Assembly: GCF_963675165.1 (NCBI RefSeq)
Contig: NC_087392.1
Span: 876,001 to 940,000, forward strand
Length of the DNA: 64,000 nt
Source of the DNA: Halichondria panicea
Lineage: Eukaryota; Porifera; Demospongiae; Suberitida; Halichondriidae
Direction: 5' to 3'
The translations under genes and the position numbers were made by a program. Of this stretch, positions 31,315 through 64,000 are shown piece by piece. The notes under the pieces were generated by a model. The model worked only from the letters and a program-made list of their open reading frames with translations. It had not been told where the DNA came from and made no database searches. Each line of letters begins with the position of its first letter. Positions within the stretch are counted from its first letter, which is position 1.

Positions 31315-33645
31315 CTAAAAAAGAGTATCAGCAGTATTGCTATCCAGGCCGGGTTGTGCCGACAAGTAGTCAACATATTCTTGCCCCTTGTCGCTAGAGC
31401 CTGGTCTGCCACGGGAGGCCCTTCCTACTAGTGGCTCATGGTCGGTGTGCTCAAAGGACTCTGATGCAGCTATGGCTGCTCCTTCTGCAGTCGAAAGACG
31501 ATTAGAATAGAGCGGATTTCGGAAGTCTGTTACGTAATCACTTGAGGAATAGAGAGGGTTTGCTTCGATCTCGTCTTCCTGCCATTGCTGGCTTTCTTGG
31601 TTCTGTATCAACGACTCTCTGTCCGATTTGCCCTTTTGTTTTTGTCCCAGCCAGCTCGTCTCACTCGTGACCTTTTTTATTTTCTTCGTTGTAAATTCGC
31701 TGTCTTTATCCGCTTCCACAGTCTCTACCTGAGTGGTCTTGCGATAGATGAGGGCTCCTTTGTCTGGGTCCACAATGCCTCCCATTTCCACACGTTCCCC
31801 CTCTGTGTGTGGAGAACGTAAGACTCGTCAAAATTGAAGCTAACGAATATGTATGTAATTTAATTCATCATGGTAGCTATAATTTTATGTAGATGAATGC
31901 AAACAATATATGCATGCAGTACTCAAATGCAGTAACTCACCCTCCTGGGAGTCGGCGACTGATTCAAGATCTCTTAGTCCAGTCTGCTTATTCAGTCGTC
32001 TTTGGTTGTCTTTTTGGCGAACCCTTTACAGCGAAAAACCAGTTCCATTTATTAAAATTAATACGGAATGTATTATAGAGACTATTAATGTAATTATGGA
32101 ATATTTGATAAATTAGATACTAGCTATGTATGGATCTGAAAGTCCGGCTCACCTGCAGTACTTCCTCCAGAGAATGCACACGATGAGCAAGAGTGTAGTG
32201 ATAATGATGACAGAGTTGACCACCACAATGACTGCCACTGCCCATATGGGGATCAGTCGATTGGGGACAAAGTTAGTCGGAGACTCAGTTGGAGCGTTAC
32301 TAATGATTGCTCTGATGTCAAACCCTGCACTACTCAATCTGTTGAGGGAAGCCTGAGGCAAACTAGCAATACGGAAGGCTAGATCTGAAGCTTCGACAGG
32401 CGTATCTTCAGATTCACCTAAAATCCTGACAAAGTAATGAGTGGAGTTTAGCTGGCCAAATTCTGTGATCACTATATCCAGATCTTCAAGTATGCTGCTA
32501 AGAAGTTCTCCAAATACATCAGGTTTGAAGTTAGTAGTCGTTCCAACAAGATAGACATCGACTGTTGTAGCCATATTAAAGAGACGGATGGACACTTCAC
32601 AAGTGACACTGTTAGGGGAATCACCACGATCGCTAACACGGACACTCGGTCTCAGTGGTGTGGCAACCTCCAGACCTTCAAGGTTGCTGCACAGGAGAGT
32701 AAATAATATAAGTAAAAGCTAGAGCTTAATTATATGCAATAGGTACTATTAATAGTGCAAGGTTCTGAATTTAACTGCTTACACAATCGTCCTGATATCT
32801 CCAGTAGAAGAGTCAACTTCAAATATGCTGTTTTCATTCAGCACACTGATAAACTCTACTTCTGCATTCACTCCAATGTCTGCATCGTCGACTACCAGTT
32901 GAAACACAGATGTTCCAATGGCCACGCTCTGGTCCAGTGGGATCGCTGCTGCTACTACTGGGCACACTGGAATCTCATCATTGGCATCACCGATTGTAAT
33001 CACCACCTGTGTTAGGAATAATGAGAATGACATAATTATTACATATTACAGAGACATAATTATGTATTGATACGTTCAATAATTATGAGGAGTGTATTGT
33101 GAGATACACTGTAAAGATTTTACATTTGAGTGAGTATACACATGCATGCATGAATTGTGAGAAATAGTATACTCATGTATAATCATGTATAATTGGCCAA
33201 ACTTACATTAATTGAGTCAGGAGGAGTAGCTAAAACGACAGTTTCGGGGTCTTGTATTTGGTCTGGATCAGGCACCAACTCTCCATCACAGCCTCCACTT
33301 CCCACCGTACCGCCTCCACTTCCACTACCAGATCCGCCCACACACACAGTGCCTGAGTTCGGCCTGCTTGAAACCTCAGCTTGGCGCTGAAGTCTATCAG
33401 TTGCCTCGACAACCAGCTCATACTGATCCCTGTCCTCTCGATCGATTGGGCCATTCAAAGCTATCTCGCCAGTGAGAGTGTCGATAACCCAAAGGCCGTC
33501 AAACGGATCATCTTTGATGCGATACTCCGTGTCTGCTTGTTCTCCGACAGCAAAGTCATCATCCATAGCTAACACAGAAGTAACCACACTGCCAACAACA
33601 GAGTTCTCAATAATTGAAGCCTCCAATACATCCATGGGGAACATG
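31315..33645 (-). other. Cadherin block 5, membrane-proximal domain, TM helix and cytoplasmic tail
   Basis: Two cadherin-like repeats (one at about 33380-33650, one in exon 32783-33006) are separated by a Gly/Ser linker bracketed by cysteines (about 33280-33360). A membrane-proximal globular region (exon 32153-32686) precedes the helix at about 32160-32245. The juxtamembrane tail is basic (RKYCR, RQKDNQRRLNK). The last exon encodes an acidic, Ser-rich tail with EANPLYSSSDY and FRNPLYSN (about 31500-31570), which resemble NPxY signals for PTB-domain proteins. Confidence 0.8.
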
Positions 33646-36600
33646 GGCCGGTGTTGATCGAACTGAACGGTCACTTCAATAATGCTGGTGGCCAACTGTC
33701 GACCGCACACAATAAAAGATACGTTGAGATACACATTTCCAGCCTCGTTGGCTACAATGTAGTTGTTCTCTACCCTCACAATGGATTCGTTGGAGGACTG
33801 GATTTGGAGGAGCGATGGATCTGCAATAACCACTCTTCGTCCGTCTCCCAGCACCACGGAGGCTGTCACTTCAGCCCGCTCCTGAGAGTAGGACAGCACA
33901 GAGAGGACTTGAACCGAGACCTCGGTAGTTCCAAGACGGTCTTCAGATGGCTCTGAAGTCAGGCTCATTCTCAGGGCACCCACTATCGGATCGAGCTTCA
34001 TGATGGCTACCTCCTCATCTAAAACAGTGAGTGAAGTGGTTGGGTCAAACGGATGAGCTAGTCCAATTAGACTGAGGAGTCCACTGCCTGGTGTGAGTCC
34101 TCGAACTGCACGCTGATCGGGTAGTACCTCGATACTGTCGGAAGAACCAAGCTGGGAAGAGAGATAGTACCATAATGAGCTACAGCCTTAATTAAATTTA
34201 CTTTAATTTTAATTAATTTTAAAAAGGTATGTGCTCTGAATTGGCTAGAAGTTTCAGAAACCTATTAGATTGAGAATTTAGCTAACATTATTGATGATGA
34301 TGTCCACAACATTAGCTGTGAAGTTGTCATTGCCAGATGTGAACAGAGCGGTGGCCAGAACCCTTGCAGTCTGGTAGACAAACGGAGTAGTAGTGTCACA
34401 TGACACGTCCCTCCATCCATTCACCCGAGAGAGAGTATCATCAGAGAGAGAGAGGGTAAAGTCAGTGGGGGACCAGATGTAGAGGACGGCCATGTTAGCT
34501 TCGCTGTGAACTGGAATGAGTTGAGATGTGCTGTACGTGATGGTCACCGTTCCTAGGCTGCTGGGGACATTTGTGTCCACGGACACTCTTGAACAATCTG
34601 CAAAGAGGATTCAATTCATGATAATGTGTATAATGCTAGTGAAATACACACACATATTACACACATGCACATACTGCACAATATAGGTGCACTGACTCAC
34701 CACTTGAGATGCCAACAGTGGAATCAGAAGCTTGACAAGTAATGCCCACGCTCAGTGGTGATGGAATGGGAGAGCTCTGCTCCAGGGTGGGGAATACTTC
34801 CGGTGTTGCCATGGTGATGCGGTTACTAATCGACTGCAAGCTGATGCTACGAGTGGTAGTAGCACCATTGAGATCTGCAACATTGACAATGTCCGGTTGT
34901 TGAGCAACGGCAAAGTAGAAGACGTCCTGTACTTGAGCGAACTGGACAGAGACTCTCTTCACAGTTGACGAGAGACTCAGACTGGGGCTTAGAACAATGC
35001 TGTAGAGAAGAGACAGTATTATACACTACCTTGGTACTCTCAATGTTTCACACTTGAATATGCACAGCAATGTGTGCATTTCCTGTCAATGAATATAATT
35101 ATAGCAACTCTTGCTATGGGACAATGCATACAATCAGGAGTGCATGCTATACAACATACTGATTATAAGGGAACAGCATTTATAGATCACATGCACTTAC
35201 TTTTCTAGCTCAATGTTTGTCTGGGTTTGAGTATGAGTGTCCCGGGTGGAGAACAGGAGGTCAGCCAGTTTGAGTGGGCGGGCCTCAGATATTGCAACGA
35301 CATTGCAAATCAGCCTTCTTTGAATAACACCTGTGCAGAATTAAATCATACCACTGAAATTCTTATTTCATTACAGAACACTACTTGATCACAAGGGAAT
35401 TTGCTTATACATTAAACTTATAAACACTTACCACAACTCCAGAGGTCAGTGTCGAAGCTGATATCCACCAGATCAATTAGTTGTTCATCGATATCCCACA
35501 CAATGCGCGCCTCTACGCTATCGTACTCTCTGTCCAGAGGAGACACCACAAACACTTCAATGGTGAAGTTCTTACCGGGCAGGATATCATGTGAGGGGGC
35601 AATGGGCTCTATGATGGCAGATGTTAAATCAATGGCATACACCGGAGAATGTTCAACCACCAGCTCTCCAATGGAAGTACCAGAAGACGTGTCGGAGTCA
35701 AAGTTTATCCAAACATTAACGTTGTCACTGGCAATGTTTGTCTCACTTCGTGCAAACCATTCGTCAGGAAGCACAGCTTGTGCAATACAAAATCCAAGCT
35801 CCTCCGAAGTGGTACAAGTAGCCTCGACAACGGAGGGACCTCCTTGTCCTCTCAAACTTTCCGAGGCTGTAACCCTAGCTCTCATCACAGTAGGCCTAGC
35901 AATGGTGTCTCTAGTATCAAGTGCTTGCATGAAGACTGTTACAGTTTTCAAGCTGTACTTGACTTCGGAATTGAGCACAGAGCCGATGAATTTTTCGGCG
36001 ATATTTCCTTGATTTGGAATGAGTAGCTGGTCCACTGTTCCAGTGGCGGCTGTGTTGAGTTTTGCACTAGCTGACACAGGGCTGCCAATTTCCTGGCTGA
36101 ATAGATATCCTACCCTCTGCGTGTAGCTTTTAGTCGATGATCTTACACGTGAACCGAAAGTGAATCCGTCCTCTCCTAAATTCAAATCAACAATTTGTCC
36201 TTCGATGATGCTCACAAACAGAGTGTGAGAAGTTGATTCAGGTGAAACACCAGCATCAGACGCAATCACTTCAAGTGTGTAGTTGTTCACAGTGCCTACA
36301 TTAAGAGTGCCGTTTATGGAAAGCTCGCCAGTGCTTGGATCAATAGAGAATGGGACATTTGGGTTTTGCAGACTGTACGTTATAGCTGAGTTGTCCCCAG
36401 TGTCATTGTCTATAGCTGTGAATGTAGAGATGACAGTGCCCAGCTGTATGTCTTCTTCCACACTGATCATGATATCATTGCCAGGCAGAAAGAAGGGAGC
36501 ATTGTCGTTAATGTCAGCTACGATTATGGTAAGGGTAGTACTGGTAACGAGAGGAGGAATTCCGCTATCAGATGCATTGATCAAAAACTCGTATCTGTCC

Positions 36601-39600
36601 TTGACCTCTCTGTCCAGTTCACCAGTGACTTGTATATAACCGGTTCCATTTAATTGGAAAGGAGAATCTGCATCCAAAGGTATGAGTGTTAAGGTGACTG
36701 CTCCATTAGCACCAGCATCGAGATCAACCACAGCAGTTACACTCTCAGTGAATGTTTCTGTTCTATTGATATAGAAATTTTCAGGTATAAAGAAGGTGTA
36801 CGGAGCATCAATAAACATTGGAGCATTGTCATTGATGTCTAGTATATCAATCTCTAGATATAAAATATTGGAGAAGACATTTGGCTTTCCGAAATCAGTC
36901 ACAGTCAATGTTAGATTGTAGGATGGCAGAACCTCTCGATCAAGGACTCCAATTTGATACACAGATCCAGTCACATTGTTGATTATAAACTGTGGTGGAG
37001 GATCTTTCAGAGAGAAGAAAAATTCACCATTTCTTCCGGAATCTTCATCAGTAGCAGTTGCATTGAATATCGCTAAGACATCACTTGGTGGTCTGTCTTC
37101 GGAGATGCTCACAATAAAGTCCAAATTAGTAAACATTGGTGGGAAATCATTCACATCAACAACAGTGATGATAATTGTTGCATTGCCAAATGGAATATCT
37201 CCAGCGCTTCCTTGAATGAGTATAATGTACTCATTGCGTGTCTCAAAGTCTAAATCACCACTTACTGCGAGACTTCCACTAGTAGGATCAAGAGCAAAAG
37301 GCACTTCTTCACTAATAATTGAATACGTTTCATTACCAGTAGGGAAACCTGATGCAACTAGATCTACTGACACAGTGATAATATCTCCGATCATTTGTCC
37401 CATAGGTGCACGTTCTAGTACAGACACCTTGAATACTGTACCGTCAAAACTACAATAGTCAGATCTGCGAGTATTGGTGAAAGCATTGAATGGATGGAAA
37501 CCGCCACGCATACCAATTGACACATCATCTAGAACAACATTGGGGTCTCTTTGAGATACTACACTGATATCACTCAGTTGAGGAGGTCGCAGCATTTCAC
37601 TGGTGATGAACACGTCATTACTTCTGGTGAAAGAGACAAAGCGCTCAGGTGAAGTTTGACCAGAATTGTCAGTTGAGACCACCAAGTAGGTTGCTCCCAC
37701 ATTTGTGAACTGATCTCCAAGAGGAGTGAATAGTCTTAGGAAAAAATTGGAACTCTCTGGTGATTGAAGATTTGCTTCGAACATGACGCTAGTGGAATCC
37801 AAGATCACACCAGAACCACCCAGCTCTGAACGGCTAAGAGCAATCAAGTCACTTGCATTGGGATAGGAGAGTATCACAAAGACAAACGTATTGTCTCTCG
37901 ATGGTCCGTTGTCATTGAACAGCAGGTTGAGCTCTATTTCAAGCGTGCAGTTTGTGTCTGGACTTGGCATCCGCAGTTTGGAATAATTCAAGAATGGAAG
38001 CAGGCCAGTAGACACTCGACTCAGGAAGAGAGCATCAGCAAAAGTAGTTGAGAGGTCTTTGTTGGCATCTTCTATGCCAGAATATGGTCCGAGGCTTTCA
38101 ACTCTTCTTAGGATAGTCGCTGAGTCCAGAATATTGAACATTCCATCTCCGTTAACATCTACCAGATCGATAAACGTAGGGGGTGATGATATTCTTGCCT
38201 GAATGGATCTGGTATCACCAATACCTGAGCCCACGAGCACATCAAGTCGAGAGACGCTCATAGCATCCGAAGAGAAGGGGGCAAGAGAATTGTCAGCAAG
38301 CACGGTTGCATTGGTTACCACAGAGGTCACACCAGAAGCACCAGTAGATCTAAAAACCAGGCGAGCAATTGTTGGCACGTCCTCAGTGATCTCTCCAGTT
38401 ACAAGGAAGGCAAAGAGGGCTTCCCCAGGTGGCGAGTTCGTCCTTTCAATCATGGTGGCACACACGGCATCCTCAATGGAGACTAACTCGAGAACTTTGT
38501 TATCATAATTCACATTCACTTCGAGAGCCCCAATGTTTTTACCGCCTGTGTTGGCACGGACATCGACTGTGAATTCCTCTCCAGAAGATATTGGTGGTTG
38601 TGGGATGCCGTCAGTCTGCCCGAGGTCAATCTCCCCCAGGGCAGGCTCTAGATTGGCCGTAAAGTTGAGGGTGCTGACCAAGGACTCGGTAGATGCAATG
38701 AGGGTGACAACGTCATAGTGATTATCAATAATCTCGAGAATCCAGCTGGCACTGTTGAATGTGGCCACATGAGGTGGAATCACTTCAAAGGACAATAGAG
38801 ATGATAGTGAACTATTGAAATCTATGACATCATTAATAAGGGTGTTATCGGCAAATGCAAGGTTAGCGATAACTCTTCTTTGTGTTGCCGACAACTCTTG
38901 CAATTCAAGCGTTTGAATGTTTATGACAGATTGAGAGTTATCCAGTAGAACGACAGTCAGCTGGTCATCAACCGTGAATTCCCCTGCAGTTACTTCAATA
39001 ACAGCACTGCCTGATACACCTGTAGGAGTTACAACACCCTCAGGTGATACTGCGACTCCACCAGTGCCAATCTTGTACTCCACGTTAGTGAGCAACTCTC
39101 TCTCACTGTTTGAAAGGATAGCTTTGGTTACAATCATGGCTTGTTGCTGAACGTTGGTGTTAGCAACTCGTGAGAGAGAAATGGAGTTAGCAGGGCTGGA
39201 AAGTGGGTCAGGGAATGATTGAAGTCCAGACTGGATACCAATAACATCCAAAACTTCAATCACTATAGATTCAACAAAATCTCCGAACATGATAGTAACA
39301 GTTCCATTGGCACTAGTGAATGTTGTATTTGCTATAACAGCCAGCCCATCATTAGTATTGCTCACAATCAGATTATCGGATGCTGTGTATGTGAAAGAGT
39401 TGGGTATGATCACACTTCCATCATCAAGCATCACGGTCACACTAACAGAGGCGTTAGAAGGAGTCTCAGGAAGAATGACACCACGTGTACTTCCAGAAAT
39501 TACATTGTCATAAAGTTGCACAATAAGCTGTTGTGGTTGGGGTACGGAGACCCTCACAGGGACCTCTGCAGTAGACTGCGGAGTGGTACAGCCTTGGGGC

Positions 39601-42600
39601 GTCCAAGAGAAGAAGAGCATGCTTTCACCAGCACCAATGGTGGCGAGAGATGTGCTGATTACTTGTGAGTCTGTCGTGCCTATGGTTATCATATCACTCG
39701 GAACATCATATCTTGCTCCATCAGTGAAGTATACAAATGAAGTGTAGTCTCCTATAATGTTGATCCCATCAAAGTTCTGGTTGATTATAGCCGAAACGAC
39801 AAGGGTGCTATTTACAGTAAAACTCGAAGGTTCAATCTCAACGTCTATTGATGAAAATACGGTAGGGAAGAGACGATAAACATTCACTACCTCATTTGTA
39901 ACAGTGAATGCCTGGGAGACTTCGGGGAAGAATTGCAAAGAAACAGTGACATCTCCTGGAGATATTCCTCTAACTGTGTTGAGGTTAATCTCTGCTACAG
40001 TAGCATTACTTGATACAAACGGCACATCAGCGATGTTCACCAGAGGGCCTTGTTGATCTCCATTGACAAAGTATCCATACAGACTGAGTTTCGCCTCTTG
40101 ATAGAAATCAGTACAATCTGGATTTGGAGCAACTAGATTCAATTCCGTGTCTGTTGCAGACAATTCTAGTGACATAGCATCGACACACCATGCTCTCATT
40201 GGCATCTGAAACACATAGCCCATAGGATCATGGGTCACTGAAACATTAAAATCTCCCGTACATGTAACACGTTCAAGTTGTGTACGCACTTGACAACCAT
40301 TACCATTCAAAACTAGTGTGGTAGAATCGACAATTGCACAGTTGATGTTATCAGTGTTTTCTTCACCAAATTCAGTGTCTACGTTAGCTCTGTTGTAGAT
40401 GATAAAGCTGGATACATCTGTAGTCTTAAAATCACCATTCAGAGGAGTGGTATTGATTATCTCGGGTGTTGGTACAGCTGCAAATATGCCTCTTGCTTGA
40501 GTTTCAACAAGATTGAGACTTGCAGAGCCTGTTGTAGTCAGACCATCCATACTGTACATCTGAGCTGGATATGCCCTACTTATAGTCGAGCCAAATTCGG
40601 TTACCAGGGACAAAGTAGTCACACTAACCATATTGTTTGCCACAGCGATACCGTCTGCAATTGCGACTGGAATAGAGAAAAATAGATTTGTTCCCAGAAG
40701 TGAAAGAATTTCCTCTTGGTTGTCAACTCTGATGCAAGCATATCTCAAATTGCTGTTGGCAGTCACATTTGAGCATCTCCAGTTAGGGTCATTATCAACA
40801 TTACCGGCAGAGGAGAGGCCATTTGGAAGAGACAGTTCAAATTGCAGGGCTTGTACATAGAGGTGACTTGGTGCACTAATCCATATGTCAAATTCTTGTC
40901 CTGCATAAAGAGAGTAAGAAGGAAGCTCTACTACTAAGTTTTCGTTAATATTGGCAGGGAGGGAAAGTTTACGGAGGGTTACTGAGCCCAATTCTTCTCT
41001 TATATCTCCTCCTACGATCACAACGTTCACTGTAGTGTACTTGTCAAACCAAGACGATGGCACTTCAACTTCAGCTAGACAAATACCAGTCCAGGACCTA
41101 GGATCACCACGACAGCTAGATCCAACAAATATGGGACTTGACATACCAGTTGGATTAATCTCCAGGTGGACAAGGGAGTAGTCAACATAAGGACCCAGGG
41201 ACTCGTCTCTAACTTGAGCAGCCACGCTAACAATCGGTTTGTCGAACCATACTTGATCCTCACGAATAATTCCATCAATTCTTGCAATTGGCTGCGAGGA
41301 TCTTAGGGCACTTGCAGAGTAACGCAAATTAGAAGCACTCACGTTCGTTTGAGGGTAAGAGTTTCTGAAGAATGACACTTCTCTGTAGAAGCCATCTTTT
41401 TCAGGTCTTGGTCTCACAGGACTGGAAAAGAAGCCATTGCTAGAAGGAGCAATTTCAAACAAGAATCTAGAGGGCTCAGCCACAACGATTTCAATTGAAA
41501 CCGAACAGTTCTGTCCATCCACATCTGATACCATGACGGTAACGTTGTAACTAGGAACATTTAGTCGGTCAAAGTTGTAAATTTTCGTGTAAAGTGCCCC
41601 TGTCATGTCGTCAACGTTACGAACACCAAACTCATCACTCGGTTCCACAAGGATGAAGTTCAGCACACTGTGGTCTGCTCCAAGGTCAGCATCCAAAACC
41701 TCGATATAAAAGAAGTTGGCATCTAGAATCTCATTTTCTGGTACCATAGCAAGTCGTTGGAGAGGCTCACACTGAGGGGGGTTGTCATTGACTGGATCTA
41801 TACTGATAATTACTATGGCATTGGTAGACAGACTTGGAGTACCACCATCACTAGCAGTTACGTTAAGTGTGTACATCATTTGAGCTTCAAAATCTAATCC
41901 GGCAATCAAAAATATCTCTCCAGTTTGGCTGTCAATACGGAATGTTGGCTCTAAAATACTAAAGGTTATCTCAGCATTCACTCCTATATCAGCATCACTA
42001 ACAGTCACAGCGCCGATAAACGTTTCCATTGGTGCATCCTCTGGTATGCCGGAAAATTGGAAGGGGTCTTGATCGAAAACAGGTGAATTATCATTAATAT
42101 CTAGCACCGTGACAACCAGCTCCCCCACACCTGACAGAACACTGAGAACACCTCGATCCACTGCATTAAGAGAAGCAAAGTAGCTTTCAGTAGTCTCTCT
42201 ATCTAAGGTTGAGTCAAGATCAAGAGTTACTATTCCTGTTGTAGCATTGATATCAAATGGAAGGGAAGAAGAGTCATTGCCAAACGAATACATTACTTCT
42301 GCGTTAGGCCCAGCATCACTGTCGTTAGCGAACACTTGAGCGACAAAACTGCCCATTGTGATATTTTCAAACACTTCGACTTCAGTAGTGAAGGGGAAAA
42401 AGACTGGTCTTCCAGCATTGATGCATATCAGAGAAGAGAAGGTCTGGTTGAACAGCATGAGAGGGTTGAAGCCCAATTCAAACATGAACGGAATGTTAAC
42501 AGATGGACGCTCGATAACAGAGAAAACTGGCTCTGGGAAGTAAGACGGAATTGAATTGTAACGAGTTATAACCTCAGCTCTATTATCAGAAGAAATAGTG

Positions 42601-45600
42601 CCGTACGGATCTACACGAGCTTGAACTAGAATGAGACCGACGTCTTCTCGAGCGATAGCAGTTTTGAGCACAGTTCTATAAGAAATGGACGAGGTATCTT
42701 GAGGAGCAGCTTCGAAGAATCCACCACTTGAACTGGATGGATAGTCGCCTGAACTGATAACATTTCCAAAATTCAGCGAAATTGTAGTGGCGTCAACTTC
42801 TTGTTGGAAGCCTGGATTGCGATGGAATAGACCAATCATGAGAGAGGTCTGAGCACCGTTAGCAACAGGAGAGCCTCGGCCAGATAGAGTAGCATCAATG
42901 GTGAGGAAACAATCGTCATTGGTAGCGGAAGTCACGGAAATACTCTGTACAAAGCGGACAATTCTAAAACTGGCCCTGAGGAGGAATAGCAGATCTCTCT
43001 GGCTGTCACATCGTCCATCATAGTCAGCATCTACATCAGGATAGGAGGCACATCCACCATCTTGGAAAGCTAGAACATCGTCAAGGTTAAAGATGCAGTC
43101 TCCATTAACATCGCCAGTCTCAATACCATCCACTGACACACCACCACTGCATGGAGTAACAGTAGGCTGAAGGGCATCCATGGCTTCATCCACTTGGAGT
43201 GTTGGGAGTGTGCCTTCTTCCTCAGTGGAGTTGACAAACACACCTACACTGGCAGCGGGAGAGATGGGCAAGGAGTTGAATATGTCTTGAGGAGGATTGC
43301 TACGGTCCAGCAGTTTGATCACTCGAGCATTGATTGCTGCCAGCCCAGACGCATCACTGAGAGCTCTAAATGAGAGTTGCGCTATATTTGCAATACCGGA
43401 AGTGGCAGGTTGGTCGTTAACGAGACCTCCTAGATAAACAAAACCACGGAATTCCCTCAGGGAAGACTCAAAGCGACTGTCAGGTGTCCAGAAATCACCA
43501 GCAGAAATGTCAATAAGTTCAACTAGATCATCACTATAAGACACACCAATTTCCAGTGCACTGATTTCAGTTCCACTCAAGTCAATGTTAAATCTGAGAG
43601 GTACATAAAATGTTTCTCCTTGCTCCACGGGTGAGATAGGACGAGTATTTGTGGTACCAACATCAAGTTCTCCTGTCTGAGGTTCAAGATTTGTATAGAA
43701 ATATAAATTTTCAGTGGAAGTGAAGTCTTGATTAGCTGCAAATGTAATGCTGACAGGGCCAGGGGCATATTGTAGGATAGTAAGCTGGTTAGTTGCCGGG
43801 TCGATATCAAAGATATCTGGATTGTTATTTGTGATTACGAAGAGGCCTGGAATGACCTGTCCAGTTGGTATAAACGCTTCGTCCAGTTTAGTTCCATCAG
43901 CAAAACCAACCGAGGCAGAAATGGTAGTCTCGACTAGCTCTCCAATGGTTCCAATGATGGCTTCACCATTCGACAGTGAAGCGGAAACAGAGTTGACAGG
44001 GATACGTTGACCTGTGACAATCACAGTGTAACTATCAGCTAGATTAGCATTAATGAATGTAGCGGTTACGCTGACAGTGCTAACAGCCTGAGGCATTATA
44101 ACACCAGTAAGAGAGACAGCGGCAGCTGCATTGGACGAGTATGTCAACGAAGGGCTGGAAGTGATATCGTAAGAGTCTTGGACGGCAGCTTCTTCAGGGA
44201 ACTCTACGCTCAAGCTAGCGATGAGCAGTGCTCGCTGGTACACACCAGTATTTCCAATTCTGTTCAGAACACTCACTGATCTGTTTTCCGACCCGCTGAA
44301 GGCTGGGAAATGTCTAGTCTCAATATCAATGGAGGTGCTGTAGCCTAGATAGAGGGTGATTGGGCTTGCTTCTTCCAAAGCCTGGTAGCCAACAGTTAGG
44401 TTGATGCTATCACTTACACCGGAGGCAGTTGCCGTTAGCGTCATGGTGTTGTCAACAACATTTGGTGCAATGGATAAAATATCGTCTTGAGAAAACATAA
44501 AGCGAGTCATTGGATCTTGTGTGACATCAACTGATCTTAGCTCTCGCCCGTTCTTGTAATACACCAGCTGCACGGTCACGCTTGACTGAGTTGGTACGTT
44601 CACAACACCGGAGATTGCTGCAGGGTCTGACGAATGAATGAGCACTGTTTCGCTAATCGTAACTCGAATCACAGGTACAACCAAATCAATATCCAGATTC
44701 ACGGGCCTTGATAGAACAATACTTCCGTCGCAAGCAGATCGCCATGTTGCTTGGATAAGGTTCTCAGAAGGTTGGGCCAATACAGTGACTTCATTTCCAC
44801 TCACACTGAGCACACTGGAGTTTAGGGACGAGTACATGACCTCGTTGGTGATTCGTCGCCTTATGGCATCGGAAAATATTACCGTGGAAACAAGGCTGGC
44901 CGATTGACTGACATATGATAGACTGGAATCGATATTGGCCTGGAATGGACTTCCGCCGAGGTATGGAATTGAAACTGGGGTAGATATATCGAAACTACTT
45001 GCTGCAGATGTATCGATCTCAACTGGTCTTAAAGTGTCTGTATTCACAGTGACGTCCACGGAATTAGCAATTATATTGTTATTGTTTGGATTGCGAGCTT
45101 GCACTAATGTTGCTCCAGGTGCTACTCCAATAACAGTTGTGCCTTGTATTGCAACAGAAGATGCTGTTGAGCTGATACTAAGCAGATCTTCTACTTTCAC
45201 TCTCACTCCATTCTCTTGTGGGTTACGTCTGAACGTGGCGATTGCTTCGACTACGGTATCTTGGTAAGCGTCCGCACAGCTGCCAGAGGCATCGGTCACC
45301 CATCCTTCCACTGGGCTGAGGGTGGCGTCTAGCACGCTCATTGCGATGGGTAGGTCAGGATACCAAACTTGGAACTCAAGGTTGACTGGGAAGGCATTAT
45401 TGCCGATGGACAGTCCACTTTGCACAGATGTTGCTGATAGTATAATGTTCACAGTCCTTGAGCCTATGAATTCTGATCCATCCACAAACACTTCGTCACA
45501 ATTAGATGTTGCTTTAACGATGTTATCATTTTCACTTGAGCATTGAATAGTGCCCCGAGCAGTGCCTTGAGCCAGTAGGCCTTCAAATCTTGGCTCAGCT

Positions 45601-48600
45601 GCCATTACAACAGATAACACAGTGGGGAATACTGATCTCTGTTGGCCTGATAGAACAGCATCATTGATGAGTGCAGTCTGTCTGGATGCATGCAGAGCAC
45701 CAACAATTACATCTTCCGCTGGATTCACGGTGCCAGAGCTGGGTCTACAGCCGTCTCGATTGACTACTTGCACGTTTGTATATTGTTCAAAATCTCCGTT
45801 ACTGTCCACAGCTCCCAACAAATCACATGATATGCTCAACGGCCTTGAATTGTCAGATACTCTTATTTGAAGGCTCACCAATTCTTCGTATTCAAATTCT
45901 TCTAGCACAGCGCCAATTCTGTTCGCAGTGAGACTGGCTTCAGTCTTTGCATCATTCAGTTCCGCTCTAGTGGCCCATAAAGTTTGGGCAAACGCGTCCT
46001 CTTCGAACTGCAGTCCAGTTTCCAGTTGGCAAGTTAGAGAAAATGAGCTCATGTAGTAGCTACTGCTCCTTTGAGCAAGGATAGGAACTGAGATAACTTG
46101 GTCATTATAGACAGTATAAGAGGGCACTTGCATAACCAGGAGAGTTGTGGAGGAAGTGGCACATAACGTTCTGTAATCGGGCTCTGGTGCAAGGGTGATC
46201 GTTGTAATCTGTTCAACTGCAGCGTAGCCAACAACACCGTACCTAACTATCACTGTGCGAGTTTCTGAGGCGGTAAACGAGAACCATTGTCGAGGAATAT
46301 TAATACTCACTACTGCACGGGTAGAAATTGTAGTTGCATAAGAAGTCACGTTCATCGCGTTAAATTCAATCTCCATGAACACATCAGCGTCTTCAACCCT
46401 ACTGCTCCCGAACATATCCGTGATTCCCAATGCAATCTTGGCCACTCTGCTGTCGTAAGAGACCTCTGGAGTGAGAAGGACAGCATTAGCCCTGCTGGCA
46501 GGAAGTTGCTCCACTTCAATGTCTGCTGATTGAGAAATATCACCAAACTGAGCTCGGAAATTAACACTGCTCCCAAACACGTTGATGAAATCTTGCTGGA
46601 ATGTGCTAATGTCATCATCTTCTGCTGTTTTCAGTGGATTGTTGACCTTGTAGCCAATAGAGGTGGTGAAATCAACTGGCACAGTTTCTCCGACGTTGAC
46701 AATAACAATGGCTGTTCCGGTACGCACATTTGAGGTTCCCGAATCGGTAGCAAGCACGGTGATGAAGTAGGTTTCAGCATCAGTTGATCTCAAGACTGCA
46801 CTCGTAGTTATCATACCAGTAGCTCCGTCAATGACAAACCGATTATTAATGGGCTCACTCATCATGATGGAGTATGTGAAGGGAGGTGAGCAAATGTCTT
46901 CATCACTTGCAGTGACAATCAAAATATCCATTCCAGATTCAATTCCGTCTGGAACTACAGCAGCGTACTCCGGTCTTGAAAATATTGGGTCGTTGCTGTT
47001 ATCGTCCCTGACATTGAGAGTGACGTTGACAGGTGTTGTAAAACGCAGCTGAGCTCCCGGGTTGTCCTCGGCTACCACCACAAGGTTGTACTCCATATCT
47101 TCCATAGTACAGAGGCTGCCCAATGTACGGATCTCACCAGAAACTGGGTCAATAGCAAATAGCGAATGAGGTTCTTGAAGAGAGTAGCGAATATTTCGAT
47201 CGGCATTTTCATCCGAATCAGTAGCATTCACATCTATAGCCAGACCTCCCACTGGTAGGTTCTCACTGATATCCATTCTGTACATAGGAGACGAGAAGAC
47301 AGGAGGCGTGTCGTTGATGTCAATCAGATCGATGATCACCTGAGCAGTGTCGCTTCTATCAGGATTATTAGGATTAAACGCTGTTACAGTGAGGAAATAT
47401 TGTGATTGTCTTTCTCTGTCCAGCGATTCGACTGTTTCTATCACACCAGTATTAGAATTGATTTTGAAATCTTCATTCCCAATTCCTGTCAAGTTGTACC
47501 TAATCTCCGCATTATCTCCGCTGTCAGCATCCGTTGCAGAGATGAAGTCAATCACAATAGTAGATATGAAGCTGTTCTCGACTGCCAAATTATAGTATGT
47601 GGTATTGCTGAGAATTGGTGAATTATCGTTTAAATCTACGACAAAAATGGTAATGTTTGTTGTAGATGATTGGGGTGGAACACCAAAGTCCGTTGTTTGG
47701 ACCACAATAGTGTAGTTGGCAATGCTCTCGTAATCCAGAGTACCATTAACAGAAATACTACCAGTGGACTCATCGATTGAGAATGGAGCATCGTCCGTGA
47801 GTATATTGTAAAGGAATTGATTATCATTTGCATTATCTTCGTCGATAGGATTGTCACAGAATGAACCAAGATCACTATCAGTTGCCGTGAACTGCATTAC
47901 AAAAGTGTCCTGCTCAGAATTCTCCGATATGTCAGCATTATAGGATGTCTGGTTGAAAACTGGAGCATTGTCATTTTCCTCACACACCATGACCCAGATG
48001 GTATGACTGGCCGGGATAACTCCGGGAATATTGATCTCTTCTGCAAGTAGAGTCACGATAAAACTGTGAGGTCCTTCTCTGTCTAGAACACGGGTTGCAG
48101 TCAGAATTCCTGTCACAGGGTCAATAGAGAAATACTCTAAAGCTGACTCTGGATTCGGACCTTCTGCTCCCATATCATCAGCAATGAAAATGCTATTAAT
48201 TGTGTAGTTGAATAGAGCATTCGGACCAATATCATTGTCCACGGCTACCACTTCCAAAAGCACAGTTCCAAGTATATTATTCTCACGAATTCCAATCCTA
48301 GTTGGGGAATTGAAGACTGGCCGCAAGTCGTTTGCATCCAAGACCCTCACTCGAATCTCAACAGTCGAGGTTAGTGGACCGAAATTGGCATTGTCTTGTA
48401 GGATCACTGACAAGTTATAACTGTCTCTAGTCTCGCGGTCCAGACTCTGTATGAGATGGAGGCTAACAGTGAAAATGCTGCCACTGGTTCCCCTTGTAAT
48501 AGGTCCAGGTATAGCCACAAACACTGTAGAGATGACACCATCTTGTAGGACAGTGAGCGTGTCCGAGAGTCCGTTATTGTCGGCAGTTGCGTCTCGATCA

Positions 48601-51600
48601 TTACCAGTAAAGTCAAACACCGACTGTGACATTCCGTCAACGAGAGGAACATCTTCAAGAACTCCAATATCGTACAGAGACTGTTCGGCGAGCGGTTGAT
48701 TATCGTTAATATCCACCAGCTGTATCACCAAAGGAAGTGTGACGTTCCGTCGTGTAAACACATCCGGGCCTTGATCAGTAGCAACCACCATGCCTGCAAT
48801 TGTCGCAGACTCTTCTCTATCGAGCCTGCCCACAACATATATTTCACCCGACGTTGAGTTGATGTCTACAACCCCTGGAGGGTTGACATTCATAAGGCTG
48901 AAGCGGATTAGACCTGCTGGGAGGGGGAAATCCCTGTCAGTGGCACTGACTACTCTAAGCACTCCAGTTACATCTTCATTCTGTGTAGTCACAATGATAG
49001 AACCCAAGTTTGGATTGAACACTGGGCTGAAATTATTGAAGCACAATTCGGCCGAGAAGCTGTTATCAAAGAACTGTGTTGGATTGAAGGTGTTCAGTTG
49101 CACACTCACAGATGGTTGGCCAGATAGCGGCATGAATTCAGTAGAGAGTGAACTGTACGCCGGAGGGAGTGTGGGTGTTCCCCTAAGTAACAACGTCCTT
49201 TCTTGGGTGGGAAGTCCCGCGGGATCAAGGCTTCCATAAATGATCACTAGCCCGATGTCTGTCTGTGAAATTAAACCTGGTACAGTCTGTAGTCCGTACA
49301 CACCCTCCCCAAAATATTCCGGTAGTATCCACCCTCCAAAAGCACCCACTGGAAGTGAGATGGTTGACAGTTTGTCTCCGCTGCTAAAAGTGGTGCTATC
49401 GAACTGTGTCTGGAACTCTGCATTGCCGTGGAAAATACCGAGATAGACAAAGTTGGTGTCGTCTACTTGTCCCTTGTAGCCATGGAGAGTCAAATTTATT
49501 GTGAGCTGACAATTAGCGAATTCGGAATCGACGGAACGAATAACAAGATCACTAACTATGGGGTATATGCCCAGACGAGCATTGATAAGGAATTGCACAT
49601 CTGAGGGGTTGCTTTCTCCATTTCTGTCTGGGTCAGCTGCTTCTAACTGGCTGGGGGTGAGATTGATATCGTTTTCTGGAAGCGCCAGCTCGGCAATCAC
49701 TTGTTGCAGGAATAGCGCATCCAAAAAGTCAAACACACAGTCAGCATTGGTATCCCCTGGCACTGGTCCTGCAGCGATTGTCATGCACTCCTCTGGAGAG
49801 CAAGGAGGCGCATTGCATCTGGGCGGTGAAGAAGAGAGGTTTATGTCCGAGGGATCAAAGTTGAAGACAGAAGTTTGCGATACTTTTGGTGTGGTACTTC
49901 CTATAGTCTCCATTTCACTGTTCACTACAGTGTTGGCAATGAGGTAGAAATATGGAACTTCAGATGTTAAAGCGGTGAACTGTACGGTGGCTATGTGTGG
50001 CAAGGTGGTGGTTGTAATCGACTCGGTAACAAGAATACCAATTCTCAGCATTCCCGCAGTGTCAGTATAGCTGGTGGAGAGGATGGAGGAGGTTGGTACA
50101 TCTCTACCTCGAATGACAGTCGGTAGACTAGAATCAGCAACTCTATCAATCTGCAGGTCACTCGAATTGAAGTAAATTTCAACTTCAAGAGCAGCTAGCT
50201 GTTGGTCTCCAATGTTGAGGTAGAGCACTACACTGACATTGTCACCTGCAGTGTGGCCATACAACAAACCAGTCACATCCACCTGTCCCATCACGGGAGT
50301 TAGGTCGGCATTAAATTGTACACTAACGACAACACCATTTCTTAGAGTTGCATTGATGGTAATGTCATCAAGCGAATTTCTGAGTAAAGTAACTTCTCCA
50401 GTATCCTCATCAACACTCACACTAGCGTCTGTGCTTGCAGAGAACTGAACAGTAGCCATTGCCAGCTGTCTGTTGTACGCTACTATGTTGGGTAGATATA
50501 CACCATCACTGAAGATCACGGTCACTAAAGAGGAGAAGGTTTCACCAAGAGTGCCTTGTAGGAGATCATCAACAGTCGTTGGTAGTGAAAACGAAGGGAT
50601 GCTAGTTGCTGTGATTATTTCGTCAGAGATTGTTAGGATGATGTTATCTGAGAGTTCTCCCAAATCGACTGTCACAGTCAGGTTGCCGGGAGTGGTGGGT
50701 GTGACCACTCGATCGTTAAGGCTGGCAATAGAACTGTCAAGACTGAACGCAACAGAATCGATATCTGAGATATCAATGCTTCCTCCGTTGGATAGCATTG
50801 CAGAAACCATCAACTGAGCTTCTTGGTAAATGGCGGTGTTATTATATTTCTCCAGCACCAAGTCTTCAGAGGACATGGAGTGAGTGGGATAGGAAGCTGC
50901 TGTCAGTGTTATGCTCTGAATTCCTATAATCTCCACATCGACACTTGCCATATAATCTGAGCTACCATAGCTGTATAAAGCCGTGACAGTATGGTATCCA
51001 GCATGGCTGATATTCAGGTCAGCGGTACTCAGGACACCTCCCTCAATTGTAGGGAGATCGGGAGCTGTTAGTAGGAGCCTGTCGTCATTGGTAACTCGCA
51101 CTCGCATGCCATCTTGATGTATCAGGTCTACCTCGTATGTAGTTTGCGACGGAATGTTAAGAATGCCATAGTGGGGCTCAAGCGAAAGTGTAGTGTTGGT
51201 AATTATAAGCTGGATGGATTCAATGGAATTTAATACAACTTCCACATACTCTGATACTGTAATGTTAACGTTGCAGTTTGTTTGATCGAGTTCGGCAATT
51301 AGGAATTGTCCCATTCCAGTTCCTCGTACAATGATGTCAGAGTTCACTATTTGAATCACGTCCCGGTCAGTAGAGCGGAATGAGAGTCCGTAAGACTCAG
51401 ACAGCTCAAAGTTTCGTCCGTTGCTAAGCACAGCTTCAGCAAGAATGTCCACTTGAACATCAAGGTGATTGAAATCTGCTACCAAAGCAACAATTGTATT
51501 CTGAAGAGATGGCACTCCAGGAAGAACAGTGGTCAGAGGGCGGGGGACAAGGTCAGAGTGCAGACTCAGGCTAATCCCTTGAATGGTGACACTAGAGCTT

Positions 51601-54600
51601 GAAATTACAATGTCTGACGATTGGTAGATTTGGCCGGATACATCAGCAAACCATACATTAGCGGAGCCTGCAGCCACTCCCCTAACTCGAACTGCGTAGG
51701 AGTCTTGGTTATTTTCTACCATTAGGACGGAGCTATCAGAACTCTGCAGGATGTTTGCAACAAACTCGGTTACGTAAACAACTTGACTATCGTCTCCAGA
51801 GGAGAACACGCCCTCAACTTGAATGCCAGTGGACTCATAGGCTGGTTCGCACTGCTCTTGGAAGAGGTTGGCTATCGGACTAAGCTCCTCCTCTCCCAGC
51901 ACAAGTTGAACGTCAGATGGATACCAGACTCGAAAATACACGATGTCCACCAATGAGGAAGCCGATACTCTAACCCCCACACTCTCGCTACCTTCCGTCT
52001 CATTTCCATTCACATAGACCCGAGAACAGTCCTCGGCAACCTGCAACACTCTCTCATTCATGCTCTCACAGTACAAGCTGTCAAGTTCTGTAGTGACAAT
52101 GCCTGAGGCAAGAATCCCCTGAACCGCTAGAGTCTTGGAAACCATCTCGCCATTGAGGACAGCAGTGTTGATGAGTGTGCTGGAAGATGCATAGTTGAAT
52201 AGAGATACTACTGTGTTGGGGGTACCGAGGACAATGTCACATGATCCCTCCACACTGGGTCCAAGATGAATGGCTGGAAAGTTGTAGATCTCTGCTTCTC
52301 CATCACGGTTGGTCAGAGAGTTCACGTTACAGCTGAAATTCAAAGGTGAACTCACATTCACACTGGCATCCTTGTCCAAAGATACGCTGACAACAATATC
52401 AAAATTGAAAGTGGATTCTGCACTAGGTGGATTGTTGTTCGAACCAGTCAGCGTAAATACACCATTGTTGGAGGCATAGTTAACAACAAAGCCATTTGTG
52501 TAACTGGCGAGCTCCGAAAACTCAAGCCCATCAGAGATCTCACAAGAGATACTGAAGTAATCGACTTGCTTATCTGTACGTCCGCTCACAGTCACATCAA
52601 ACTCCTGGCCAGGATAGACCAATCGGTTGGGTAGTTCCACTCGTATCCATGGGAGAGTAGTTGACAATGGGAAGGCATTGGCTCTCACTGTTTGCACAGA
52701 ACCTATAATGCCAGTACCTAGGTCGGCAGAGTATGATACCTCAAATGTGTTATCTTGTACAAAGTAGCTTGGTGGTAATTCAATGACAGCTACACATCCA
52801 CCAGTGGGAGACATCGTAGTGCAACCTGAAGTATCACTTTCTGTCCCAACCAGAACAGTGAAATCGGTTGGTGAAATTGATGCTTTCTCAAATCCTTCAC
52901 CTGTCACTTGAATTCCGACCAATACACGAGGGAAGTCTGGGTAAATAATCTGTTCGAGTATCACAGCACTAACGCTAACAGGTGGAGCTGGTTGCACAGG
53001 AATAGAAGCAGTTATCTTAAGGTCTCCTAGAATATAGGTAACTTCTGGAGAGCTTGTGAGAACCGAAGCATCCGCCACCCAAATATCTTGCTGGTACTCT
53101 TCGGTAGAGAATCGTGAGATAGTTGGCACGGTGAGTCCATTACTCACTACCATGGAGATGGGTAGCAACTGACCAATCAGAACAGTGAGAGTCACCTCAG
53201 ACAAGAGATTAGGTAGAATGTTATTATTTGTGTCGGTGGCTCGAAGTGTTAGTGTGAATGTTAAATCATCAGTTGTGAGGGATCTCATTAGAAAAATGCG
53301 ACCTGTGGTTGGCTCTATGTCGAAAGTATTTGCAGAATCTCCAGCTACTATTTCAAACACGGGAGGACCAGAGCAGATATCCTGGTCCGTTGTTCGGAGC
53401 TCTGAGAGTATCTCTGTACCTGCAGGCGCTTCTTCATCGACACGGCTGACATACGAAGGCTGTACAAACTGAGGGGCAAAGTTGTTCTCTTTATACACTG
53501 ACACCTCAACCGTTGTAGTATCATTAAAGTAGTCCATTCCCGTATCTTCAGCAATGTAAGCGAGAGAGTATAGTTGAGTAAGGGGATCACTGAAGCAGAG
53601 AGGGGAGGACACTATCAAGTCACCAGCTAAGGGAACAGTGTCAAATAAGTCCCTTCCATTCTCAAAGAAGTACTCAGAGATAGCATTGGGTCCAGTATCA
53701 GCATCGATTGCAGTGACTCGACCAAAAACTTGACCTATAGGTGTATTTTCTGAGATGTTGAACGAGTATATTCCCTGTTCAAATGATGGCTCTTCATCGT
53801 TCACATCAGCCACTGATACAAGCACTTCAGTGACAGCTATAAATCCATCTGCATCGGTAGCTTGAACATTGAACAGAATAGGGTCCCTCATTGTCTCTCG
53901 ATCAAGTTCTCCACTGGTTGTAAATATAACTCCTGTTTGCAGTTCAACATCGAAATAATCGTTTCTGGACCCATTAAGAACGGTATAATTGAGGGTGGCT
54001 CCAATATTGTCCGCGTCAATGGCAGTAACGGTGATAACAGAAGTCCCTTGATCGGAATTCTCATCAACGACTCCAATGTAGCGTCTTTGTGTGAACAGGG
54101 GACGGTTGTCATTGGTATCAACAACAGATACTGTCACCGTCACGTTGGTAACTTGTTCAGGCTCTCCCAAGTCGTACGCTTGGACTTGAAGTTCGTAGAA
54201 ATCTTGTGTCTCGCTGTCGATTGGAGGAATTGTTCTAATTTCTCCCCTAACAGCGTCAATCTGGAATCGATCACTCCCTTCTCCAACTATTCTGTATCCC
54301 ACAATTGAATTGTTCTGTCCAGGCTCATCAGCATCTGTTGCTTGCACAGTCACCACCAACAGAGGCAGCTGCTCGTGCTCGATAATCAGTACTACGTAGT
54401 TATTCTCAATAAACCGAGGTGCATTGTCGTTCACATCAGTAATCTGGATAATTAGAGAGAGAGTGGAGGTGAGAGGACGATCGCTAGGGTCAACGAGAGG
54501 GGCATGTCCAAATGTACTCCCCGTTTCAGCAGTATTGTCTCCGCTGGACTCCATTCCTGCATTGTCAGTGGCAATCGCGCGAATAGCATACTCTCTATCG

Positions 54601-57600
54601 TTGCTCTCAAAGTTGAATTGACCATCACCAACGACAGAGATGACGCCAGTGTCCGGATGTATGGTAAACTTGCCAGAAGGATCGTCCAGCGTGAATGTTA
54701 TCTTGCTGTTAACACCCTGATCCATGTCAATGGCCTCTACTTGAGTCACGAATGCACCATCGTCAGCATCTTCAGCCAGAGGGATGGTGCCAGGAGGAGT
54801 GATAAACATAGGAGCAATATCGTTGGACTCGAGCACGCGAATACTCACTCGGGCTTCGTCGGTGAAGGTGCCGTCCGTTGCCTCCACTTGGAGATGGTAT
54901 ACTCTCGGCTCTTGCTCATAGTCCAGATTGTTTGTGAGGTAAATGGCCCCACTTACACTATCAATGCCAAACAGACCATAATCAGTTTTGTTATCGTCAT
55001 TAGCAACGAACATGTATCGCACACGATTGTTTGGATCGATATCATTATCGGTGGCAAGCACAAACAAAAAGGGAGGAGTGGTAAGGGTGTGGTTTTCTCG
55101 GACGGATTGGATGAAGTTCGATCGTACAAATACCGGAGAGTTGTCGTTTTCATCCTCTAGAAATATAGCAACGTCCACTGTGGTTCTCATAATTGGAAGA
55201 CCGTCGTCTCTGATCTCCAAAGTTAAATTGTATATCGTCTTATACTCTCGATCAAGGACCACATCTTGAGCTACGGTAATCAGACCACTCTCAGTGACAT
55301 CAAAAAAGTCAATGTCTCCATCAAGTACTCGATAAATGATACCATTTAAATCTTCATCTGTCGCCACTACTTGCAATACAAATGTTCCATTTGGAGAGTT
55401 CTCAGGGATTTGAGCAATCAGAGTGGTAGAATCGACGGCAGGTGGGAACTCGTTAATGTCAGTCACTATGACAACGTAAGTGGTTTGTGTTGAGAGAGAG
55501 GGTGTTCCGGCATCCATTGCTCGTACAACCAACGTGCAAGATTCGCGTGTTTCCTCAGCATCCACTTGTTCTCGCAGTATCACTACACCAGATAGTTCAT
55601 TAATTGTAAACCTAGTTGAACAATCTTCAGGCATAATACTCAGCACATCATACGTAACGTCGCCATTGACCCCAGAGTCTAGATCGGTGGCATTAATCAC
55701 AAATGCAAGATTGTTAATCTCTGCATTCTCAGGGATAAGGATTTGAATCAGCGGAGCTTCGAAAATGGGTGCATTGTCGTTCTCATCGGTGATACTAATA
55801 ACCATTGTCCCAGTTGTGTTGAGTGGTGGGTTGCCGCTGTCATTAGCAAAGATATCCAAGGTGATTATCTTTGGAGCATTTGGATCATCAAAGTCTAGTG
55901 CAGAGACGACACGTACGATTCCTGTCTCCCCATCCACCGTAAAACTTGAATTCTGAGTCACCAATTTATAATAGATCTGGGCATTACTTCCAACATCAGC
56001 ATCAGTAGCCGTTATCTGGAAAACTGATCTCTCAATGGGAGCGGTCTCGGGTACGTTAACTACGAACGGATCATCAGTGAAAACGGGTGGATTGTTGTTC
56101 ACATCTTCCAGAATGACTCTCACATTGACTCGAGTGGTTCTGGGCGAGTCTGCTCCGTCTCGGGCTTCAACTTGAAACTGAAACTCATTGCGAACGTTGT
56201 AGTCGAAGTTAGCACCAGCTGCTGTGATTATTTGACCACTAGTCTCGTCAATATAGAATACATCTGCATCTTCACCGGCAACAAGGGAGTAAGAGATTTG
56301 TGAGAAGAGGCCAACGTCAGCGTCCACTGCTGAAACTTGTAGCACAGAAGTGCCTGGGGGTGAAAACTCTGGAATGTCCGCTAAATAAGCATCTTCAGAG
56401 AATATTGGTGCATTATCATTGAAATCCATCACTTGTATACGAGCCACAGCTGTGTCTTCATTCATGCCGTCTGATACAAGCAGCTGGAGTTCGTAGACTC
56501 GTCTCACATCCAGACTGCCAGTCACAAACAGGTAACCTGTGTTGCGATCAATTGCAAACAATGTCTCGCCACCGCTCAGAAGGATAAAGAGAAGGTTGAC
56601 AGAGTCTGCATCAGTTGCGGTTATTGCAGTGGAGGCAGGTACAATACTAGAGGCCGTGAAGTTTTCGGGAATTGTAATTACAAACACATGCTCGGCAAAT
56701 CTTGGTGCATTATCGTTGAAATCCATGACAGTAATCGTAACGCTTGCCGTGGCTTGTAGTCCACCAAGGTCGCTGGCTACGATAGAGAAACTCCATTCCT
56801 GGGCCACCTCATAGTCCAGCTCCCTCAAAAGTACCAACTCTCCTGTTGCACTGTCTATCTGGAAAGGGAAGGTGACATTCGTCAGTTGATAGCCACTAGA
56901 CTCAAGCATTCCGCTGGACGGATCAGCTGGCAGAATATCTCCTTTGATAAAATCAGTCACTATTTCGTAGGTGATGATTTCTGCACCATCTCGATCTGTT
57001 GATTCAACTTGCAGGATTACTTCACCTTCTCGGCTGTTCTCTGCAATCGTCACCGAGTAGCTAGGCTGGTCAAACTCTGGAGCATGGTCATTGGTCGCAT
57101 TAAGCTCTATAAGGAGACGTGTGGGTGCTCCATAGAGGCCTAGATCATCTTGGATACTTAGAGTGATTCTGTACGAAGAGGTCTCCTCGAAATCTAGCGG
57201 TCCAGACACAATCACAAGCCCAGTCGTGGAGTCAATGGAGAAGGGGACTTGGTTGAAAATCATAATCGAAACCGTAGCGCCTTCATCGGGATCGTTGTAC
57301 GTAATAGCCAGAGGCTGTCCGCTAGAATCGAGAACAGAGTCGCCTAGTTCAGCTGTCTCTATAATGAAACCACGATACTCGGTTTGAAGGAACTGAGGAG
57401 GGTGGTCATTAACATCACTGATGGTAACATTAACAAACGTGGTGCCCGTGAGAGGACTGGTACCGGCATCAGTTGCAACAACGGTCAGAGTGTAATAGCC
57501 AATGTTTTCACGATTAAGACTATTATTGAGAGAAATCACACCTAATTCAGAGTCAATTCTAAATGCTTCGTTAGTATTACCTCCGGCGATACGGTAAGTA

Positions 57601-63713: not shown

Positions 63714-64000
63714 CTTTTGTTCTGCAAATGCACAACAAATTAAACCAACTTGTTGCATTTATTTATCAGATGTGAGATGTGCAAGTGGGAGCTAAGAGAC
63801 TAACTTATGCTAAAACTTTTAGTTTTTGTGCAATTATGTTTAAATTATACAGAGATTTTCTAGCATGCAATCTAGCTCAAGTATACTTTTTCACTTACCA
63901 GTTTTGAAGGTCTGTTTTTATTCTGCAAAATACAACTTAGCTTGAGCAAAACAGATTGATCTGCAGCAGCTAAAGAGGAGTAGATACGCCTTCAAAAAGT
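63714..64000 (-). promoter_or_regulatory. 5' UTR exon/intron and upstream region of the giant cadherin
   Basis: An acceptor (TTTGCAG) at 63722-63723 precedes the start codon by 8 nt. A good donor (AACTG|GTAAGTG) lies at 63897-63898. This suggests a non-coding first exon from 63899 rightward, possibly past the window edge, joined by an intron of about 176 bp. The promoter is not identified. Confidence 0.55.

Follow-up and report, generated by a model that had tools for sequence, protein, structure and literature searches.

The window analysed here is a stretch of 64,000 nucleotides of the Halichondria panicea genome (contig NC_087392.1, positions 876,001 to 940,000), and its minus strand carries a predicted giant cadherin gene. 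Inside this cadherin are three complete repeat units (A, B and C) and a shorter fourth (D), which finishes in later exons. A complete unit, at roughly 1,400 residues, is twice as long as the TMEM132 core and has the order conserved region, cohesin-like domain 1 and BIG1–BIG3 (the TMEM132-like part, which is the first half only), followed by BIG4–BIG6, cohesin 2, dockerin and a domain termed X. A preliminary description had placed four TMEM132-like units in a giant cadherin at 33645..53190. Collinear Pfam pieces, controlled profile alignments and a predicted cohesin fold bear this proposal out. The coordinates agree as well: unit A begins at about 53186, the match of unit D extends to about 33660 and the next Pfam cadherin domain runs from about 33623. 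The alignments show the domains, their order, repetition and conservation and the kept calcium-ligand positions, all at the level of sequence. Taken as a whole, the product is probably a coherin-type adhesion receptor of giant size that crosses the membrane once, with dozens of cadherin domains, three compound modules and a shorter fourth.

Repeat units and their TMEM132-like half

The four units are as follows.
48993..53186, minus strand: unit A, complete, 11 domains (unit model positions 1–1412 of 1,413, 1346.6 bits)
42399..46694, minus strand: unit B, complete (unit profile alignment)
37407..41489, minus strand: unit C, complete (unit profile alignment)
33660..36197, minus strand: unit D, TMEM132-sized, formed by the end of the giant exon and exons near 35201-35330, 34701-34999, 34287-34597 and 34151 downwards

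Because A, B and C themselves went into the unit model, the bit score of unit A is partly circular; the independent test is profile–profile alignment, using unit profiles from 20 database hits aligned to the window protein. Unit A aligns to unit B with E 1.1e-120 over 1,315 columns and to unit C with E 8.7e-86 over 1,274, and B aligns to C with E 2e-95 over 1,297. In contrast, four control pairs of a unit against a cadherin profile give E 0.08 to 0.39, and cadherin against D gives 0.06. The part of D in the giant exon aligns to A, B and C with E 7.1e-14, 1.6e-12 and 7.6e-16, respectively. On the unit model, D covers positions 8–242 in the giant exon and 331–399, 399–493 and 498–663 in later exons, with positions 243–330 unmatched. 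Its exon 35201-35330 has no unit model match and was placed by eye via splice signals; the remaining joins were picked among script candidates. Since D runs into a cadherin domain, it lacks BIG4–BIG6, cohesin 2, dockerin and X, and it is the only one of the four units of TMEM132 size. The earlier suggestion that a whole ectodomain had been multiplied thus holds for the TMEM132-like half, which is repeated, but does not describe A–C, which add an entire second half.

The first half of unit A is divided as follows.
52632..53186, minus strand: conserved region, Ig_TMEM132_2nd (Pfam E 0.00098, below the cut-off; no other Pfam match in this piece)
52206..52652, minus strand: cohesin-like domain 1, the TMEM132 third domain
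51846..52223, minus strand: BIG1, Ig_TMEM132_4th (PF16070, E 3.7e-21)
51489..51869, minus strand: BIG2, Ig_TMEM132_5th (PF23486, E 0.0026, below the cut-off)
51174..51500, minus strand: BIG3

Profile searches give TMEM132 matches above chance. PF16070, the TMEM132 fourth domain, is over the cut-off in unit A and in unit B (E 1.1e-13) and reaches E 1.1e-24 in a relative. Across the genome (131.5 Mb in 39 contigs), it has six matches at E<=0.001, all in three giant unit-bearing frames; PF23481 has a single match at E<=1, in unit A (E 0.07, below the cut-off). Cohesin-like domain 1 of unit B matches TMEM132_3rd with E 0.0031, also below the cut-off. The fourth domain of unit C (E 0.01) is level with a chance hit, and unit D gives E 0.026 for the second domain and 0.17 and 0.062 for the fifth. 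Neither C nor D passes any TMEM132 Pfam cut-off alone; both join the TMEM132-like set because of their profile similarity to A and B. Across the units, Ig_TMEM132_2nd, TMEM132_3rd and the fourth- and fifth-domain families occur in the expected order, mostly below the cut-off except the fourth. No single unit holds all four families, and the four BIG3 pieces have no TMEM132 match in Pfam.

The motifs named as hallmarks in the preliminary description are clear in some units and eroded in others. LIN.AVL.G reads LINTAVLNG in A, LINDAVLSG in B, IINTTPLNG in C and IVNVADLNG in D. The VFVNG motif is readily recognised in A, as VYVNG, and in B, as VFVDG, and has been lost from C and D; F.VWYP, likewise clear in A and B, has degenerated in the other two units. 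C and D have a clear C...C.A...LP..WF motif; the copy in A ends in PPSYF, and that in B lacks the Cys pair. TVLDEEVAI is present in unit D, as described.

A cohesin fold is predicted at the expected place of the TMEM132 third domain. By sequence, one alignment of the core has no match among solved structures; a second has one match, at E 0.71, judged to be chance. Convergence of Ig-like and cohesin-like beta-sandwiches could account for pieces that score weakly alone and for the broad Foldseek matches of the core to Ig arrays. However, such an origin of the TMEM132 likeness is very improbable given the strength of the PF16070 matches, the ordered presence of the other TMEM132 families and the position of the cohesin fold; the cadherin blocks have no such match.

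The cohesin–dockerin half

The second half of the complete units is composed of the following features.
50283..51194, minus strand: unit A BIG4–BIG6 (BIG4 without a match, BIG5 Ig_TMEM132_6th at E 0.024, below the cut-off, BIG6 with chance hits), called Ig-like from repeat position alone
49839..50306, minus strand: unit A cohesin 2
49509..49796, minus strand: unit A dockerin with two calcium loops (PF00404, E 4.7e-7, over the cut-off)
48993..49544, minus strand: unit A X domain, past the dockerin, with confidently predicted strands
43188..43691, minus strand: unit B cohesin 2 (PF00963, E 1.2e-6, over the cut-off)
42909..43145, minus strand: unit B dockerin (no Pfam match alone; conserved loop Asp residues)
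38193..38654, minus strand: unit C cohesin 2 (PF00963, E 6.4e-8, over the cut-off)
37947..38177, minus strand: unit C dockerin (PF00404, E 1.9e-4, slightly below the cut-off)

In profile and fold matches, cohesin 2 has the cellulosome cohesin fold and the dockerin has calcium loops as in the cellulosome. The unit A dockerin matches the profiles of the solved dockerins 2ccl (E 6.5e-5) and 1ohz (E 1.1e-4), and cohesin and dockerin each match 10 of 12 half-units at E<=0.1. An alignment of 12 half-unit sequences has 19 invariant columns, including D194, N196, D198, D205, D234 and D245. The duplicated two-loop arrangement of type I dockerins is present. The first and last Asp of the loops are kept in 20 of 20 rows for both loops of unit A and in 19 of 19 for both loops of unit B; in unit C they are kept in 14 of 17 rows for loop 1 and in all 17 for loop 2. 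Past each dockerin lies the X domain (48993-49544, 42399-42938 and 37407-37979), which is conserved and, in the unit A copy, predicted to be folded. It has no Pfam match and no assigned fold, having barely been tested because cohesin fills the structure-match list.

Several observations weigh against this assignment of the units. In the first half, the weak TMEM132_6th match sits at BIG5 of unit A rather than at BIG3, the conserved-region piece of unit B matches an unrelated family (E 0.0071), and that of unit F, a copy elsewhere in the genome described below, has no Pfam match. A plain Foldseek search with the core model has no cohesin among the best 50 rows listed, which long Ig arrays fill. 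In the second half, loop 1 of unit C is lost in 3 of 17 rows, and calcium loops also occur in EF-hands; the half-unit profile matches some EF-hand proteins as well (1c7v, E 0.0059). Genome-wide, PF00404 passes its cut-off solely in A, and PF00963 solely in B, C and F; since these profiles pass in few copies, the cohesin and dockerin of the remaining copies rest on the unit alignment. Cohesin-like domain 1 and cohesin 2 do not match each other (E 0.02 to 0.05, like unrelated pairs), and the linker between cohesin 2 and dockerin is predicted at low confidence.

If the exons are spliced as drawn, they would specify one membrane protein on the cell surface. Its adhesion would be calcium-dependent, with the cadherin blocks providing a calcium-stiffened reach, and cohesin 2 and dockerin of the same or of facing molecules may bind each other. 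Such a contact could act as a cis clasp that stiffens or locks the ectodomain, or as a trans handshake that links cells. There is a substantial, if less than even, chance that cohesin and dockerin are instead structural spacers that do not bind each other. Some of the unit C loops are lost and the dockerin of unit H, a further copy in this genome, is degenerate, which speaks for spacers, but the calcium ligands are among the invariant half-unit columns. By analogy with cellulosomes, a bolder form of the binding reading, which we regard as unlikely, is that each unit carries its own matched cohesin–dockerin pair and that these pairs zip neighbouring coherins together unit by unit in a calcium-dependent manner; cellulosome chemistry would then have been reused in animal adhesion, with TMEM132 keeping only the cohesin-like half.

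The giant exon, its relatives and the origin of TMEM132

The coding parts outside the units are as follows.
35432..59213, minus strand: giant coding exon, some 23.8 kb long (splice donor GTAAGT and splice acceptor CACAG chosen by a consensus script, from sequence only)
53190..59213, minus strand: cadherin block 1 (PF00028, E 9.5e-245, 18 stretches in 2,050 residues)
46695..48992, minus strand: cadherin block 2 (PF00028, seven stretches)
41490..42398, minus strand: cadherin block 3 (PF00028, three stretches)
36198..37406, minus strand: cadherin block 4 (PF00028, four stretches)
33381..33623, minus strand: cadherin domain past unit D (PF00028, E 7.9e-16)
59307..63758, minus strand: upstream exons with more cadherin domains (Pfam scan of six of nine likely exon frames)
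32152..32718, minus strand: membrane-proximal region with the transmembrane helix (no Pfam match; helix recognised by eye as a hydrophobic stretch)
31318..31827, minus strand: cytoplasmic tail exon with two NPLY motifs (regular expression)

The giant exon lies in a single open frame of 7,948 codons, counted from stop to stop (35421-59264, minus strand). In this frame, Pfam places cadherin in four blocks and, between them, the TMEM132 fourth and fifth domains, cohesin and dockerin; in block 1, none of the TMEM132, cohesin and dockerin families matches at E<=0.01. The exon aligns across almost its full length to 15 further proteins from the database, 7,486 to 7,997 residues long, in which it is likewise one frame throughout. 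Upstream, PF00028 matches four of the six scanned frames (62420-62695, 61140-62333, 60711-61112 and 60323-60700) and is absent from 63099-63290 and 63300-63758. In the tail exon, the two NPLY motifs are separated by ten residues; together with a weak Integrin_b_cyt match in Pfam (E 0.072, below the cut-off), they suggest adaptor binding. Directly downstream of the cadherin, on the same strand, is a gene of the TraB/PrgY/GumN family (28784-29743, Pfam E 2.5e-17).

Bacterial contamination was rejected on the basis of the splice signals, the cadherins, the 5.8 Mb contig and the Wnt genes in the same assembly. The Wnt matches, on three contigs with a best E of 5.3e-54, point to an animal genome; choanoflagellates are not known to have Wnt.

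Among the 20 database hits, 15, leaving the window's own protein aside, have all three complete units together with the beginning of D; some of these may share one species. The remaining five are the window's own protein, two shortened versions and two relatives of a second giant frame of this genome, on contig C16 (486212-504727), which holds three near-complete units, E, F and G. In a tree built from 38 units of 15 sources (1,345 columns) and rooted at the midpoint, each of the positions A, B, C, E, F and G is a separate group with support 100. Because each position is its own group, the units multiplied before the sampled proteins diverged. A third frame, of 3,964 codons with Ser/Thr-rich repeats (C15:5724204-5736095), carries unit H (model positions 9–1277 of 1,413) and a hydrophobic helix near its C-terminal end, and has no cadherin match at E<=0.01. 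In the tree, unit H groups with unit C at support 93 on a long branch.

Shared ancestry with TMEM132, as the preliminary description proposed, is supported and is already in print (PMC6030884). TMEM132 of other animals may be a trimmed relative of the first half of the module, a trimming also seen in unit D. Two routes by which this could have happened have to be weighed. First, the compound module may be a surface module of greater age that once stood by itself and was shuffled on separate occasions into cadherins, a lefftyrin and a mucin-like protein and, trimmed, into TMEM132, which would then be a sibling of the cadherin units, neither cut from nor inserted into a cadherin. We hold this tentatively as a possibility: the cadherin-free frame of unit H speaks for it, but H, which groups with unit C, could secondarily have escaped from a cadherin. 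Second, TMEM132 might be a fission product of a coherin-like gene in which the last unit no longer had its cohesin 2 and dockerin half. Unit D, which ends near the length of the TMEM132 core and adjoins the membrane end, is in line with fission, as are choanoflagellate cadherins of the same architecture (PMC6030884). However, D ranks with the units that resemble TMEM132 least in Pfam, with the weak second- and fifth-domain values given above and no fourth domain, and we consider fission improbable.

No stand-alone TMEM132 was found in the genome by searches that are insensitive to intron-split genes. The unit A core, searched as a protein, matches only A and F; this search missed units known from the unit model and is therefore insensitive as a test of absence. 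The best match of TMEM132_C (PF15706), E 0.76, was rejected. In the protein database, the TMEM132-like core has two matches among 7,996 candidates scored; neither is a bilaterian TMEM132, and each of the two contains the greater part of a compound unit and clusters with unit G. For cohesin 2–dockerin–X, the database gives one homologous fragment, and one genome scan for a bacterial or archaeal source gives ten matches to a single short pattern, none confirmed.

The raw sequence and its controls confirm that the architecture of an animal neural protein family is repeated inside an ancient kind of cadherin, in a module about twice the TMEM132 core in which both members of a bacterial-type adhesion pair are found. 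This makes two questions testable: whether cohesin–dockerin binding operates when animal cells adhere, and whether TMEM132 derives from one of the units and, if so, from which. For the second, the cadherin-free single-unit frame of H is a useful comparison.

Comparison with known systems

Coherins, cadherins of choanoflagellates and sponges, were reportedly described by Nichols et al. in 2012 and are also treated in PMC6030884. Lefftyrins are defined by a cytoplasmic tyrosine phosphatase and hedglings by a hedgehog N-terminal domain. The window gene fits a coherin, over a lefftyrin or a hedgling, by its predicted domains, since the scanned tail exons hold no phosphatase and hedgehog-signal matches occur solely on another contig. 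PF00028 and PF00963 lie within its single open frame. Tyrosine phosphatase gives no match at E<=1 in the scanned membrane and tail exons and none in the window among the genome matches listed; the genome has 176 such matches at E<=0.001, and most of those listed are on contig C4. The four hedgehog-signal matches at E<=0.01 are all on contig C11 and none is within the window; at C11:251190-288448 they lie close to cadherin frames.

The preliminary description had left open whether this architecture was known; it was described in 2017. According to that paper, the coherins, lefftyrins and hedglings found in choanoflagellates and sponges contain the full set of five TMEM132 domains, arranged in the same order (Sanchez-Pulido & Ponting, 2017; PMC6030884), and our finding is an independent rediscovery of the TMEM132-in-cadherin architecture. 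Beyond the combination of 2017, a cohesin–dockerin pair is seen here in each complete copy, which, like the unit count and the cadherin-free gene, we do not claim to be unpublished. The window gene resembles coherins in having cadherin and cohesin in one chain and TMEM132 domains in the order given there; it has three complete compound units and a short one, mostly in one 23.8-kb exon.

The C16 region (463224-509726) comprises a giant frame of 6,027 codons and another of 6,172, together with a tyrosine phosphatase; compound units occur in it three times. Like the window gene, its frames combine the compound unit, in three copies, with cadherins; they also have laminin EGF domains and a tyrosine phosphatase, the latter without a match in the scanned tail exons of the window gene. 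The EGF domains and the phosphatase lie on the same strand near the E–G frame, as does the 6,027-codon cadherin frame. By the definition above they are lefftyrin-like if they form one gene, as we infer. For hedglings, TMEM132 domains are reported in PMC6030884, but C11 has no fourth-domain match at E<=0.001, so that statement is not borne out in this genome.

Human TMEM132A–E share with the units the conserved region, the cohesin-like domain and the BIG domains in the same order, and share with the window gene a single membrane helix. As presented in PMC6030884, TMEM132 has no cadherins, cohesin 2 or dockerin, unlike the window gene, whose cadherin match in the same frame sets it apart from a short cadherin-free TMEM132 protein. 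The WIRS and RVxF tail motifs of TMEM132 were not found by regular expression in the three likely tail exon frames. Finally, the window gene shares with the bacterial cellulosome the cohesin 2 fold and the dockerin calcium loops; unlike in the cellulosome, both partners are on one animal cadherin chain.

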